Shown: positions 21,434 to 55,055 of the stretch, piece by piece
Layout of the letters: each line of letters starts with the position of its first letter
Numbering within the stretch: the first letter of the stretch is position 1
Assembly (NCBI GenBank): GCA_960531495.1
Contig: OY482866.1
Location: 17,761,346-17,825,345, forward strand
Length of the DNA: 64,000 nt
Source of the DNA: Zeus faber
Taxonomy: Eukaryota; Chordata; Actinopteri; Zeiformes; Zeidae
Direction: 5' to 3'
The notes under the pieces: generated by a model
Told to the model about the DNA's origin: nothing
Seen by the model: only the letters and a program-made list of their open reading frames with translations
Database searches by the model: none
Made by a program: the position numbers and the translations under genes

Positions 21434-24382
21434 TCATGACGTGTCCATATGCTCTGGAGCTTGTTTTATCAAGCCCCCCTCTCCAAAATAAACCTGGATG
21501 GATCCGGCAATCCAGTCGCCTGGATTAAGGTCATGTAGGGGACCTTCCAGGGGTCTGGGCAGGGGGTCTTTAACCTGTGTGTTGATTTGACGAAATGTAC
21601 ATTTAATGACCTGGGGAGGTAAGGATTGTCGGAGGGGCCATACCAAATGCAGTCTTTCTGGCAACCATCCCGTTTCCAAATGGCACGTTCAGGTGCCGGG
21701 GCATGGATCTGGAATTGTAAGTGATCGTTAAAAGAGAGGGAGGGTCCTAAAGGGACCACTGTGCCCCCTGGGTTTTACGCAGTGAGGTCAGCGGAGCTGT
21801 CGGCTGCAGCATTACCATTTGAAACAGTCATGGTCAACTCGTCACGGTTAGTGTGAGCGGTGCATTTACATACAGCTATTTGAGATAAGAGGGTTATGGC
21901 ATCGTAACATTCAATGGATATTCCTTATATCCTATTAGTCAGATCACATTAGCCCATAACTTTTCCTGCTATGAAAATAAGGTTACAACAAATACAGACA
22001 GAAAGCACAAAACAATGATGCATGACGAACAAACAGACGAAACGTACACCCTCTAATAGTTGTACTAATTACACCGCGTTCCAAATTATTATGCAAATGA
22101 TATTTATCTCTGATTTTCCTAAATAGTCGATGCAAATGACAGCCAGTATAATTTTCAAGTCATCAACCGTACGGGTATAATTCGAATGTTATGAAACAAA
22201 CCCATGATAACCAATGAAAACAGTATTTTTTTCAAAAATAAAAAACTCAAAATGCACAGATCCAAATTATTATGCACAACAGAGTTTCAAAACATGTTAA
22301 AGGTTGTATGAACTGAAATGGTCATTTGTTGAATTTGCAGCATTAGGAGAAATCATTTCTGAAATCAAAAGATATTTCAATCAAAAACGTGAACATAGGA
22401 GGCTTCTTTGACATCACCTTCACTATTCTTGCCTCCATTGAACTTGTGAGTTTTTGGAGAGTTTCTGCTTGAATTTCTTTGCAGGATGTCAGAACAGCCT
22501 CCCAGAGCTGCTGGTTTGATGCCAACTGCCTCCACCCTCATAGATCTTTTGCTTGAGGATGCTCCAAAGGTTCTCAATAGGGTGGAGGTCAGGGGAGGAT
22601 GGGGGCCACGCCATGAATTTCTCTCCTTTGATGCCCATAGCAGCCAATGACACAGAGGTATTCTTTGCAGCATGAGATGGTGCGTTGTGAGGCATGAAGA
22701 TGATTTTACTACGGAAGGCACGGTTCTTCTTTTTGTACCATGGAAGAAAGTGCTCAGTCACAAACTCTAAAGGGGGCCTACCAGCTCTCTCCCCATGATT
22801 CCGGCCCAAAACATGACTCCGCCACCTCCTTGCTGACGTGGCAGCTAGTTGGGACATGGTGGCCATCCACCAACCATCCACTACTCCATCCATCTGCACC
22901 ATCCAGGGTTGCACGGCACTCATCAGTAAACAAGACTGTTTGAAAATGAGTCTTCATGTATTTCTGGGCCCCCTGCAACCGTTTCTGCTTGTGAGCATTG
23001 CTTAGGGGGGGCCCAATAGTAGGTTTATGCACAACTGCAGCCTCTGGAGGATCCTACACCTTGAGGTTCACAAGACTCCAGAGGTACCAGCAGCTTCAAA
23101 TACCTGTTTGCTGCTTTGTAACGGCATTTCAGCAGCTGCTCTCTTAATCCCATGAATCTGTCTGGCAGAAACCTTCCTCATTCTGCCTTTATCTGCAATG
23201 ACCCGTCTGTGCTCTGAATCAGCCACAAATCTCTTCACAGTACGATGATCATGATTAAGTTTTCATGAAATATCTAATGTTTTCATACCTTGACCAAGGC
23301 ATTACACTATTCGAGGCTTTTTGGCAGCAGAGAGATCCTTGTGGAGAACCTGTGGCTGCTTAATAATGTGGAACGTCCTTCTGAAGTAGTTTTCCTTGAA
23401 TTGGGCTCACCTGGCAAACTAATTATCACAGGTGTCTGAGATTGATTTCAGTGATCCAAAGAGCCCTGAGACCTAATAACATCCATGAGTGTAACTGAAA
23501 AACTAAAAATAAAATGTGTATGAGACTAAAATCCAATTTGCATAATAATTTGGAACGCGGTGTAAATTAAAATGTTGATTTCCAATTTCCCTGAATTCCT
23601 ATGAATTCCTGTTGACAGTGAAGCCTCTGGATTACTGTGTGGAGATGCCTGAGAAGTTTGCCCTCCGGTTGCTAATTTAATAAATGAACCTTTCGGTGAG
23701 AATGCGAGCGTGGATCAACACAAACAATTCAGAAACCCGGGCGGAGGGGTGCCCAGGGAGTCTGGCAGATTCCAGAGTCTCAAAAGGAGTCACAACCGAG
23801 TATATGTCACGAGCAGGTGACCAGGGTGGGTGACCTTTGTGCAGACCCATCCACAAAAAGCTCCATCTCGTGATTCACAAGAGCTTCAGTAACGAGATCT
23901 GGGTGAGGCGAAGCCTCCATCGCCGGAAGGGCAGAAGAGTGAGCTGGATTCGGAACGGCGCAGCGCTGCAAAGTGATGCAAGGAAGTGAAAACAGCACAT
24001 GTTGATGACGGAGAGCCGTCGCTGGAGAGAAAGGGAGCCGTTTAGCCCTGTAGCAAGATGGAGGCTACGGGATGTGGCTCTGAAACAATGAACAACAGGA
24101 CGCAATTCATCTCCGCGAGGCTTGCGACAACGCGGCTGGCATGAAGCCATCTTTGTCATCCACGGTTTCAAAGTAAAAAGAGCGCAAACGCCAAACACGG
24201 AGCAGATGCAAGAGCTTGTGCAATTGCAAAAAACTTTCCTCTGCCTCAGGCGCCCAAGCAACTATGTGACGACAAGAAGCCCTTCCCATGAGCCGTTGCT
24301 GATAATGGCTCACGGGATAATAAAGTATCACATAATCAACACTCCGAGAGTGACAGTAACCACAGCAGCCCAAAAAGGCCAT
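21434..24382 (-). mobile_element. Endogenous retrovirus pol fragments, split by a Tc1 element
   Basis: On the - strand three pol pieces lie in the expected order. Near 24,382-24,107 is a reverse-transcriptase connection segment (FLGCCGYC, PEAEESF motifs). Near 23,900-23,810 is the start of an RNase H domain (LFVDGSA). Near 21,630-21,430 is the C-terminal part of an integrase (PLHDLNPGDW). The RNase H core, most of integrase, and recognisable gag, env or LTRs are missing, and the frame breaks within the integrase piece. It is a degraded copy without coding capacity, of the gammaretrovirus-like type by motif style (inference). The Tc1 element at 22,072-23,562 sits inside it. Confidence 0.65.
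22072..23562 (-). mobile_element. Inactivated Tc1-family DNA transposon
   Basis: Perfect 27-bp terminal inverted repeats start CACCGCGTTCCAAATTATTA at 22,072 and end with its complement at 23,562, flanked by TA target duplications (22,070-71 and 23,563-64). The transposase remnant is on the - strand from about 23,230 to 22,350, in several frames. It keeps LFTDE (first catalytic Asp), HNAPSH and SPDLHPIENLW (third catalytic Glu). In the HNAPSH motif the usual second catalytic Asp (DNAPSH) has become His, and frameshifts divide the gene, so the element cannot move itself. Its clean ends and TA duplication show that it inserted into the retroviral remnant. Confidence 0.92.
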
Positions 24383-25485: not shown

Positions 25486-25782
25486 TGAAAAGTCGTGGGA
25501 AATAAAGTTATAGATGATTCAGTACAGTTTTAATCTTTAAGTTAAAAAGCACAACTCAAACACAACCTGAGACTGTTACCATAATTTAACACCTGTTAAT
25601 TAACGTTATGTGTATGTGTGAGTGAGAGCTCAGCTCTTTGTAAATAGCACTGATACTGTATGATAGTTGAAACGAAAGCCAAGGGGAAGCAATGCGTTTC
25701 TCGCTCTGTAGAACAAACTTGAAATCAACTTCCTCTTCTGACAAATATCACTTCCTTTATCGACTTCATCAGCTGGGTGCTA

Positions 25783-25818
<36 letters not shown>

Positions 25819-25841
25819 AATCTCCCTACCCCTCTCTCCAG
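24548..25841. other. Intergenic stretch upstream of tlr2
   Basis: AT-rich. It contains an ATT/GTT trinucleotide run (25,430-25,482) and a CT run (25,785-25,815) that serves as the polypyrimidine tract of the first tlr2 coding exon. A non-coding first tlr2 exon is expected here, but I cannot place it with confidence. Nothing else recognisable. Confidence 0.5.
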
Positions 25842-25842
25842 G

Positions 25843-31457
<5,615 letters not shown>

Positions 31458-33713: not shown

Positions 33714-39174
<5,461 letters not shown>

Positions 39175-39893
39175 ACCTGCCACCCCGCAGCTAGCCGGCC
39201 AACCGCTAGCAGGGCTAGCTTCCTGGTGATGTCATAACTACGGATGCCGCCGAGGCTCAAAAATGAAATCCAGTTGAGGACGCGCGGATCTGAAACTTCG
39301 ACTGGAGAGTCTTACACAACTATGAAGTTTTGTATTTCGGCTTTTATACAAATTGAAAACAACTCGTGATGCCGTCATGTTATACAGCAAACATTGGGTT
39401 AAATGGTTTAACGCGAAGTGACCCGACCGTCCAACAATGTTATGCATTTATCTATAATTGAGTGAACCATAAAACAAGATTGGAGACAAGTCAGGTTTGA
39501 AGTCTTTATTAGACAAGTCGCATTTCAATTGCAGTCATACAAAATGTCTTGCTCAGTCAGTCAAAGCAGTTAACTCAAAAAACAGACAATTCCTTGCCCT
39601 GGAATTTATTCTCTCCTGGAAAAAACAGGCTCAGCACTGGTTGTTTGTGCCAAGAGGGGACCAGGTATTAGTACAAACTCCTGGAGCATTCTCTTGTTCC
39701 AACTTCCCAATGTTTATTGTGAAGTCTCCCCACTGGAACCTGTGGAAAAGTAAAACAATCAGGAACCTAAACATTTACCATAAACGCATGACTATTTCAG
39801 TCAGCTATCCTGCAGTCTGTGCTGCCACTCAAGAATGAAAGTTGATTGACAGGTCAGTTTTTTTTTTTTGTTTGTTTTTTTTTTAATTTGGGG

Positions 39894-39990
39894 TTTCGCT
39901 CAGACATCCAAGGAAGGTTTGGGCCGTCTCAGGTCTGCAGACCTCAGGTGTAAACTGCGAATGTTAGGAAGTTACGTCATCACAGCGAAA
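39894..39990 (-). ncRNA. snord14: Box C/D snoRNA U14 (SNORD14), copy 1
   Basis: On the - strand, a terminal stem (TTTCGC/GCGAAA) encloses box C TGATGA and box D CTGA. CATTCGCAGTTTA can pair with the conserved 18S rRNA segment around AAACTGCGAATG. CCTTCCTTGGATGT next to box D is complementary to 18S ACATCCAAGGAAGG. These two guides define U14, which is needed for early 18S processing and guides 2'-O-methylation in 18S. Confidence 0.9.
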
Positions 39991-40244
39991 CATGGCAGAT
40001 GCCTTGGAACAAGTGGGATTCAGAACTAAGAGTTCCCCTGACATTTACAATCTCAAACTGCATTTTAATAAGGTACGATAAAACAAATCCTCACCAACTC
40101 TAAAATGAAGCCATGATTACGGCTGCGCCTGCTAACCGCCTTTGGAGCCAACAGTTCTCAGCCAACACAAGCCCTGAAAACAACGAGAACGCGTCAGAAA
40201 CCAAAAAAAGCACAAAAAAGAAACTACAGTTTGACCCGTACGCA

Positions 40245-40341
40245 TTTCGCTCAGACATCCAAGGAAGGTTTGGGCCGTCTCTGGTCCGGAGACCTCAGGT
40301 GCAAACTGCGAATGTTAGGAGTTTACGTCATCACAGCGAAA
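40245..40341 (-). ncRNA. snord14: U14 snoRNA (SNORD14), copy 2
   Basis: Terminal stem, box C, box D and both 18S guides are intact (CATTCGCAGTTTG, CCTTCCTTGGATGT). It lies about 72 bases upstream of the acceptor of exon 40095-40173. Confidence 0.9.
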
Positions 40342-40736
40342 CGTGGGAGAGCGAGCAGCAAATTCTGGTCACCCAGAACGAAATCCACGTCATTAACACA
40401 GCTAGGCTCTGAGGCCGATGCACTGCCAGCTTCTTTACAGTATTGTTTGACTTGCGAGTTAGTGTCGAAAAATAAATTAATCACTATTTGCAGCATTCGC
40501 GACTTGCAGAATGTTAAAGTCGATTAAAAAAAATTCCAACGGGCAGTTTCAACTGCCTATGTACCCACCAGCTCTTTACGCAGCACTTGGCAGGACGCCA
40601 ACTTCCCGCCGGAGAGCATCAGAGGCTAGAGTACACCAGAAGCTCCAACCTGGAAAGCGTATATAGAGGGAAGGTTAACGCAAACAGTGGCCTGGGTCTT
40701 CGCTACTTGAAACTGCTTGACCGGTTCGTTTAAGGC

Positions 40737-40831
40737 TTCGCTCAGACATCCAAGGAAGGTTTGGGCCGTCTCTGGTCGGCAGACCTCAGGTGTCAACTGC
40801 GAATGTTAGGAAGTTACATCATCACAGCGAA
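40737..40831 (-). ncRNA. snord14: U14 snoRNA (SNORD14), copy 3
   Basis: Boxes C and D and the box-D guide are intact. The first guide reads CATTCGCAGTTGA, one base pair shorter with 18S. The terminal stem is TTCGC/GCGAA, pairing with one wobble or mismatch beyond it. Confidence 0.88.
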
Positions 40832-41073
40832 ACATGGCGGACGCCTTGGGAGAAAAAAAATCTTTGCGTCCAGATTACCGCTGACTGCATTTGTTATTAT
40901 ACGACCCATACTCACAATATCCAAAATGAAGCGCCAAACATGGCCGCGTTCAAGCCCACTTCCTTTAGACGCCGGTCTCAATCAAATCCAACCTGAAAAT
41001 GACATTTAAGGAAAGTCACTTCTCAGTAGAGGATCAAGTGCACAAGATGGCGGACAGTCACTTTCTACAGTTG

Positions 41074-41170
41074 TTTCGCTCAGACATCCAAGGAAGGTTT
41101 GGGCCGTCTCTGGTCGGCAGACCTCAGGTGTCAACTGCGAATGTTAGGAAGTTACATCATCACAGCGAAA
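41074..41170 (-). ncRNA. snord14: U14 snoRNA (SNORD14), copy 4
   Basis: Full TTTCGC/GCGAAA stem and intact boxes. The first guide has the CATTCGCAGTTGA variant shared with copies 3 and 6. Confidence 0.9.
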
Positions 41171-41425
41171 CATGGCAGATGCCTTGGAACAAGTGGGATT
41201 CAGAACTAAGAGTTCCCCTGACATTTACAATCTCAAACTGAATTTTAATAAGGTACGATAAAACAAATACTCACCAACTCTCAAATGAAGCCATGATTAC
41301 GGCTGCGCCTGCTAACCGCCTTCGGAGCCCACAGTTCTCAGCCAACACAAGCCCTGAAAACAACGAGAACGCGTCAGAAACAAAAAAGACGCACAAAAAA
41401 GGAATGACAGTTTGACCCGTACGCA

Positions 41426-41522
41426 TTTCGCTCAGACATCCAAGGAAGGTTTGGGCCGTCTCTGGTCGGCAGACCTCAGGTGCAAACTGCGAATGTTAGG
41501 AAGTTACATCATCACAGCGAAA
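41426..41522 (-). ncRNA. snord14: U14 snoRNA (SNORD14), copy 5
   Basis: Full stem, intact boxes, and first guide CATTCGCAGTTTG as in copies 2 and 7. Confidence 0.9.
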
Positions 41523-41762
41523 CATGGCAGACGCCTTGGGAGAAAAAAAATCTTTGCGTCCAGATTACCGCTGACGGCATTTGTTGTTATACGACCCATA
41601 CTCACAATCTCCAAAATGAAGCGCCAAACATGCCGCGTTCAAGCCCACTTCCTTTAGACGCCCGTCTCAGTCAAATCCAACCTGAAAATGACATTTAAGG
41701 AAAGTCACTTCTCAGTGGAGGATCAAGTGCACAAGATGGCGGACAGTCACTTTCTACAGTTG

Positions 41763-41858
41763 TTTCGCTCAGACATCCAAGGAAGGTTTGGGCCGTCTCT
41801 GGTCGGCAGACCTCAGGTGTCAACTGCGAATGTTAGGAAGTTACATCATCACAGCGAA
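41763..41858 (-). ncRNA. snord14: U14 snoRNA (SNORD14), copy 6
   Basis: Intact boxes and box-D guide, with the CATTCGCAGTTGA variant. The stem is one pair shorter because the sequence after GCGAA changes to CAACAG. Confidence 0.88.
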
Positions 41859-42086
41859 CAACAGCCCCAAGCGGCTTCAATAACAACCCCAACAAAGTGG
41901 GGAGAAGCAGAGACAAAATATGTCCAACTCTGGGTCGACGTACCATGTCTCTCCCGCTTGCCGAACACCCAAGGATCAGCAAGGCTCAGCTACATCGTTC
42001 CAGCCTGAAATGAAGTCAACTGATCTAAGTTACTCGGGAAAAGGTTTAAACAAGTCGCGGGCAAAAGACTGTAGAGACTAATCCGA

Positions 42087-42180
42087 GCGCTCAGACATCC
42101 AAGGAAGGTTTGGGCCGTCACTGGTCCGCAGACCTCAGGTGCAAACTGCGAATGTTAGGAAGTTACGTCATCACAGCGCG
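42087..42180 (-). ncRNA. snord14: U14 snoRNA (SNORD14), copy 7, promoter-proximal
   Basis: Boxes and both guides are intact. The stem differs from the other copies (GCGC/GCGC instead of TTTCGC/GCGAAA) but still pairs, so the change looks compensatory. Confidence 0.88.
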
Positions 42181-42857
42181 CAGACACGGCACAACACGCG
42201 TGGCGTGGCTCACCTTTCGGGAGAGAGGGCAGGTGACCACGTGGGCCGCGGTTGGCTGGAGGGGGCATTGTCCCGCGGTTCAGCACGAACTGACGACGTC
42301 CAGATCCGCAAACTGAAAAGAAACCAGCGTGTTAGGGCGGAATAAGCAGCGGCGAGACGCTGTCGAGGCCGGGTGGGATTTAACCGGGCAGCGAGGTCCA
42401 CACACGCCTGGAAATATTAACCTCAAAATGAGAAACTTTATTTTTGTTTTGTTATACGCATCTTATTTCCCTGTGTCGCACTGAGCTTAGCTGCCAGGTC
42501 TGCAACAGATAGTAGCTTGAATAACCGGAATGCACAACACTAGCAAAACATAGTAAACAAACTACGGCTAAGTTGGGTAATTATATAACTCTACTCTAAT
42601 TTAACGATAACTAATAACGTAATGAATCAGCTCCATGCGCGACGTCTACATTTAAGACACGCTTAAACAACGCACCGGCAGCGACGCGCGTTTTGAAGCG
42701 ATGGACGCTCAACGGCGCGAGCGAGGCTCGAACGGGAAAACCGGGGCGGGCGGTCGCCACGCGCGAATCCGACAACATCCACGCGCTGCCAAGTCACCCC
42801 GCGACGCCGCGCGACAGCAAGGGACGTGCGCATTGCACGCAGCGCGGACGACGCGGC

Positions 42858-42933
42858 ATTCGAGCGTCGCACCAACATTCGAGCATCGCACCAACATTCG
42901 AGCGTCGCACCAACATTCGAGCGTCGCACCGAC
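42858..42933 (+). repeat. 19-bp tandem repeat, four copies
   Basis: Four copies of ATTCGAGCGTCGCACCAAC (one with CATC, the last with GAC) directly inside the first intron of the U14 host gene. Confidence 0.92.
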
Positions 42934-42984
42934 TTTCCGCGCCGCGGCTCCTCACCCTCGCACGCGGCTCTCGCACAGACGCAA

Positions 42985-43019
42985 ACGGAACGGGGGCCGG
43001 GAAACTTCCGGGATTTATA
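42985..43019 (-). promoter_or_regulatory. TATA box and start region of the U14 host gene
   Basis: On the - strand, CTATAAATCCCGGAAG (TATAAAT at 43,019-43,013) puts transcription start near 42,985-42,990. An ETS-type CCGGAAG follows at once. The first donor is GAGG|GTGAGG just below 42,956. A 19-bp tandem repeat follows in the intron. Confidence 0.5.
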
Positions 43020-43464
43020 GTCGGCGCTTTCAAAATAAAAGCCCTCGCTCCTGACTTCCGGTGCACCGGAAACGACGCGACACTTCTGGTTTCACGAACG
43101 CAGCTGCGTTTTATTCTAAAGGCTTATGACGAAATGACCGAATAAACGACGTTACTTTCGTCCACTGTTCACAAGACACAAAGAAGTCACTGGTTTCGCC
43201 GGAGCTTACCGACCGTCCTTCCCACATGAGGGTTAAACAGGGATAGACTTGGAAAAAATCAATCAATCAATAAAGTAATAATAATAATAATAATATTAAT
43301 AACTATTCCTTTCACATTATAATTTGAATTCATGAGCACATATTGTGTTATATATAATTGGTGTAAAATTCCGTTATTAGTCAAAGAGTCTATAACTGTA
43401 GTAACTGTCGGAAAATACCAGCAAAAAAATAATTATATATATATATATACACACTGTATATATT

Positions 43465-43757
<293 letters not shown>

Positions 43758-48190: not shown

Positions 48191-55055
<6,865 letters not shown>

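Follow-up and report, generated by a model that had tools for sequence, protein, structure and literature searches.

The box C/D snoRNA U14 (SNORD14) is hosted by RPS13, among other genes. Many snoRNA families are represented in GAS5 and in UHG, and the SNORD115/SNORD116 arrays of SNHG14 are imprinted, brain-expressed mammalian arrays with no standard rRNA target. In the chicken, U14 resides in introns 5, 6 and 8 of HSPA8 (PMC2653536), and three copies occupy hsc70 introns in human, mouse and rat (PMC7277114). The latter source describes U14 as required for 18S maturation besides guiding methylation, and Cm462 is the target listed for human U14 (PMC3511168). Drosophila Uhg4 hosts seven snoRNAs (PMC9710044), and SNHGs have been called neutrally evolving (PMC11405852). 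A downward trend in C/D snoRNA gene copies has been described for placental mammals, with SNORD87 present four times in zebrafish and once in human (PMC3349704, whose supplementary gene lists cover zebrafish, fugu, tetraodon, stickleback and medaka); several U14 copies in a fish are therefore not odd in themselves. Here we describe a U14 array in a window of apparently teleost DNA (the whole 64-kb stretch that was analysed), which very probably belongs to a Pol II-transcribed, spliced and polyadenylated non-coding snoRNA host gene of the SNHG/GAS5 type, its array having grown by unequal crossing-over.

Rfam covariance models were run on both strands of the 64-kb window. All seven units matched RF00016 (SNORD14) above its gathering score of 64 (66.4-71.6 bits; whole-window E from 1.8e-13 to 4.6e-12), each match being 93 nt long, covering the full model (1-111) and lying on the - strand, and together they span 39896-42179. 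Chance similarity to U14 was ruled out by these E-values. At the gathering score no family other than SNORD14 was found on either strand of the 64 kb. A more lenient scan of 39000-43500 returned 14 matches up to E 1, namely seven SNORD14 and seven SNORD53_SNORD92; the presence of other known snoRNAs in the introns was rejected, as the SNORD53_SNORD92 matches sit on the same U14 copies and reach 27.2-31.1 bits, below the family cut-off of 46. The first-pass annotation had described seven 95-bp units on the - strand with box C, box D, a closing stem and both guides, had taken U14 to be the only snoRNA carried, and had proposed an Infernal search with the Rfam U14 model. That search confirmed the identity of all seven units, showed U14 as the only Rfam family here, and corrected the unit length to 93 nt. 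Searches with a 20-base U14 pattern in a viral contig collection and a genome contig collection, neither intended for fish, gave 0 matches.

Box C (TGATGA), box D (CTGA), CCTTCCTTGGATGT and CATTCGCAGTT stand at identical offsets in all seven copies, so that the D guide and the 11-nt domain A core are kept at constant positions throughout; the D guide CCTTCCTTGGATGT and CATTCGCAGTT agree with the Rfam consensus in every copy, and CATTCGCAGTT and CCTTCCTTGGATGTCTGA are absent from the rest of the window. None of the variable columns of the seven-copy alignment touches box C, box D or the D guide. In a comparison by eye with the human 18S sequence, the part of domain A that would pair is 12 nt long in copies 1, 3, 6 and 7 and 11 nt long in copies 2, 4 and 5, where a variable column beside the 11-nt core would alter the twelfth pairing base. 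In a closing stem of six pairs, defined from these same seven sequences, 95.2% of the cells are paired and two pairs are changed on both sides. Because 18 of 500 shuffles equalled this count of double changes, the compensatory signal is suggestive only. Folded on their own, the copies ranged from no more stable than shuffles to mildly more stable (z from -0.19 to -2.44); for copy 1, the closing stem was missing from the fold of minimum energy.

Table 1. Positions in the window of the modelled host gene and its U14 copies
Feature	Positions	Strand	Length (nt)	Details
Promoter elements	43004..43061	-		Two CCGGAAGT (minus-strand starts 43061, 43011) and TATAAA from 43019; CpG-rich stretch
Exon 1	42956..42985	-		Donor AGG|GTGAGG; 5' end inferred from TATA position
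Exon 2	42214..42312	-	99	Contains ATG opening 27-aa ORF; sites picked from scored list
U14 copy 1	42087..42179	-	93	Intron 2; RF00016 68.8 bits; closing pair G-C (others U-A)
Exon 3	41944..42004	-	61	
U14 copy 2	41765..41857	-	93	Intron 3; RF00016 70.5 bits
Exon 4	41606..41681	-	76	Type A; weak acceptor (5.5 bits); 95% like exon 6
U14 copy 3	41428..41520	-	93	Intron 4; RF00016 70.3 bits
Exon 5	41275..41353	-	79	Type B; 96% like exon 8
U14 copy 4	41076..41168	-	93	Intron 5; RF00016 70.5 bits
Exon 6	40916..40992	-	77	Type A copy; weak acceptor (5.5 bits)
U14 copy 5	40738..40830	-	93	Intron 6; RF00016 70.5 bits
Exon 7	40569..40649	-	81	
U14 copy 6	40247..40339	-	93	Intron 7; RF00016 66.4 bits
Exon 8	40095..40173	-	79	Type B copy
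U14 copy 7	39896..39988	-	93	Intron 8; RF00016 71.6 bits; A-rich stretch soon after
Last exon	39495..39739	-		Acceptor 12.3 bits; AATAAA at 39718, 39610, 39510; 3' end inferred

Each gap between copies was searched for an exon of 40-200 nt whose acceptor lay at least 50 nt after the U14, using splice-site weights, and in all six gaps the modelled exon (exons 3 to 8) was the best-scoring one. The resulting nine-exon model places one U14 alone in each of introns 2-8, and each of its eight introns begins with GT and ends with AG. Release of box C/D snoRNAs favours a distance of about 65-85 nt to the acceptor. In introns 2-7 this distance is 82, 83, 74, 83, 88 and 73 nt; in intron 8 it is 156 nt, and copy 7 may be released poorly from so distant an acceptor.

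When each gap was subjected to 300 dinucleotide shuffles, a splice pair at least as good arose in fractions of 0.033, 0.183, 0.017, 0.147, 0.177 and 0.017, so that the modelled pairs exceeded the shuffles (0.05) in three of the six gaps, the other three giving 0.147-0.183. Gaps 2 and 4 are duplicates, as are gaps 3 and 6, and only four gaps are therefore independent; Fisher combination by hand of gaps 1, 2, 3 and 5 gave about 0.005. Duplicated units are not independent evidence for the host model. Two AG sites that the model leaves unused, at 41534 and 40844, score 10.8 bits each, more than the 5.5-bit acceptors of exons 4 and 6, and an AG inside each U14 (6.0 bits) exceeds these acceptors as well. 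Exons of 61-99 bases had been annotated at the outset and were recovered (99 nt before copy 1, 61-81 nt between copies). The splice signals had been called good; GT...AG is present at every modelled intron, and taken singly the splice pairs are modest.

The gaps within shuffle range and the two weak acceptors would also suit U14s that are transcribed singly or from an unspliced polycistron instead of being released from introns. We give this reading hardly any credence, given that the U14-acceptor spacing is regular (73-88 nt in six of seven introns) and that U14 of vertebrates is described as an intronic snoRNA (PMC7277114). The sequence lends support to a layout of one U14 per predicted intron, in a host that seems to lack coding capacity.

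The spliced form of the model, itself predicted, is 827 nt long, and its longest ATG ORF encodes 30 aa, compared with a shuffle mean of 63; an ORF of at least 30 aa was present in 95.5% of 1000 shuffles of this sequence. A protein product of the modelled exons was rejected, there being no ORF above 30 aa in the 827-nt model, and the host looks as non-coding as had first been proposed. The 27-aa ORF starts in exon 2 and its stop lies in exon 3, upstream of further exon junctions; such a layout invites NMD. Among snoRNA hosts, NMD has been reported for UHG and GAS5, with U17HG, U87HG and rpS16 named as exceptions (PMC6954239).

A TATA promoter and a poly(A) signal had likewise been annotated, and both were located (Table 1). 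From the position of TATAAA at 43019, transcription would be expected to begin near 42989, within CCCCCGTTCCG, where by eye short pyrimidine runs are interrupted by G and form no clear 5'TOP tract. CCGGAAGT, presumably an ETS-type motif, occurs three times in the whole 64 kb (both strands), and two of the three are in the promoter region. The interval 42650-43150 has a GC content of 0.61 and a CpG observed/expected ratio of 1.70, compared with 0.47 and 0.76 for the window. Pyrimidine and canonical starts are both in use among zebrafish snoRNA hosts (PMC6954239). Within the CpG-rich stretch, intron 1 carries a 19-bp tandem repeat of 3.9 copies (CATTCGAGCGTCGCACCAA, 42857-42930) just after exon 1.

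At the other end of the locus, a second TATAAA at 39348 stands ahead of the next same-strand gene, whose - strand ORFs (35.0-38.0 kb) look like RNF175/RNF121. The modelled exons could thus be alternative 5' non-coding exons of this downstream RNF175-like gene, in which case the host would be coding. Its RNF175-like ORFs run on the same strand from about 38.0 kb down, AATAAA at 39510 precedes the second TATAAA by only about 160 nt, and exons without a long ORF would also suit a 5' UTR. However, the last exon holds three AATAAA and is followed by a separate TATA-like element, which suggests two transcription units, and we regard the shared-gene reading as unlikely.

Elsewhere in the window, + strand ORFs at 48.6-55.1 kb contain B-box, filamin and NHL domains (Pfam) and are taken by us to be TRIM2-like; a 43-bp minisatellite (52989-53380, about 9 copies, 93% match) lies between two of the NHL-repeat ORFs of this gene. 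A second group of + strand ORFs, at 25.7-31.4 kb, looks like TLR2. Four ORFs submitted to Pfam, one TLR2-like and three RNF175-like, gave no match. The order of these putative genes suggests that the window comes from a teleost. Mammalian TLR2 has a single coding exon; the TLR2-like ORFs (25700-31400, +) appear to be divided among several exons, and microsatellites lie in between. A - strand ORF at 22492-22953 encodes a DDE_3 transposase-type domain (Pfam, E 2.9e-08) and is presumably a Tc1/mariner-type remnant.

The history of the array was read from comparisons of its segments. The U14 copies are 92-100% identical to one another, and their flanks and exons are far more diverged outside two recently duplicated blocks. 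Segment 2-3 (named by the U14 copies at its ends) is 96.7% identical to segment 4-5, and segment 3-4 is 95.8% identical to segment 6-7. Set against each other, the two segment types share 62.5-63.6% and their exons 64-71% (upstream-flank and exon identities being computed on segments one base off at the donor). These segment values slightly exceed a background of mean 58% and maximum 61%, taken from 50 shuffles of one segment pair, and the two types may therefore be older relatives. Comparisons that include segment 1-2 or segment 5-6 fall within or below this background.

Flanks are shared by copies 2 and 4 on the 3' side and not on the 5' side, by copies 3 and 5 on the 5' side only, by copies 3 and 6 on the 3' side only and by copies 4 and 7 on the 5' side only. 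The flank classes thus switch partner at U14, and the blocks end at the U14s themselves, as unequal crossing-over between copies would leave them. Copy 5 has copy 3 as its positional partner (98%), yet it is identical to copies 2 and 4, which suggests gene conversion. Besides selection, conversion could explain the high identity of the U14s; selection is also favoured, since most functional elements are spared by the changes.

The unit of copy 7 is 97% identical to that of copy 4 over 300 nt, the preceding exon included. An A-rich stretch within 39850-39890 (- strand) starts about 10 nt past copy 7, within a few nt of 39893, where this homology stops. The array is multi-copy, and an A-rich stretch soon after copy 7 is what a retroposed copy would show; the array might accordingly be a decaying, unexpressed cluster of U14 pseudogenes produced by tandem duplication or retroposition. 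This is very improbable in our view: box C, box D and the guides are kept in all seven copies, the closing stem has its two compensatory changes, and identity that includes the preceding exon indicates that copy 7 came by DNA duplication.

From these features we infer transcription, splicing and processing of the non-coding host, possible NMD of its RNA, and function of host and U14s, as follows. The host exons would serve only to define the introns, and introns 2-8 would each release one U14 box C/D snoRNA after splicing and debranching, an exonuclease trimming the released intron down to the stem-protected snoRNP. The mature U14 would pair with 18S rRNA, through domain A for pre-18S processing and through the D guide to direct 2'-O-methylation at the counterpart of human C462. 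After splicing, the host RNA would be a by-product and possibly an NMD substrate, given that its short ORF stops in exon 3, upstream of further junctions. The array itself would have expanded at the U14 repeats, through gene conversion and unequal crossing-over.

The locus had been proposed as a new type of U14 locus. This was too strong, as non-coding hosts of multiple snoRNAs are an established class, and the locus is filed there; its single-family U14 content is a new detail that distinguishes it within the class. Among the matches listed from a literature collection with few subscription papers, there was no non-coding host carrying U14 only, and the same literature search found no paper combining rnf175 with snoRNA, or SNORD14 with host gene and teleost; automatic SNORD14 calls in genome-annotation databases may already mark these copies. 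If the model is true, a host making only U14 would uncouple the U14 dose from transcription of a chaperone or ribosomal-protein gene. The array also illustrates repeat expansion in which the block ends lie at the snoRNA itself. Only a few bases separate most of the copies, 2, 4 and 5 being identical, so groups of copies could be distinguished in reads, and their diagnostic bases could show which U14 loci supply the mature RNA. A more ambitious scenario, which we consider rather unlikely, is that a fish lineage shifted its U14 supply from the housekeeping coding hosts hspa8/rps13 to a dedicated, recombination-expanded non-coding gene and so freed U14 levels from the expression of chaperones and ribosomal proteins, perhaps to serve the oocyte ribosome burst, with sub-types beside domain A (GTTTG, GTTTA, GTTGA) tuned to 18S variants.

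Compared with the described systems, the locus shares with the HSPA8/HSC70 genes the snoRNA family, the (here predicted) single copy per intron and the presence of several copies per gene; those hosts encode a chaperone and hold three copies, whereas here there are seven copies and the model has no ORF above 30 aa. With GAS5, UHG/SNHG1, U17HG and Drosophila Uhg4 it would share intron-encoded snoRNAs in a host without coding capacity, and it differs from GAS5 and UHG, with their many families, in that only U14 is found. The SNORD115/SNORD116 arrays would resemble it in running a single snoRNA family through the introns of a non-coding host whose exons are repeated, but U14 is a widespread rRNA-processing snoRNA, unlike these families without a standard rRNA target.
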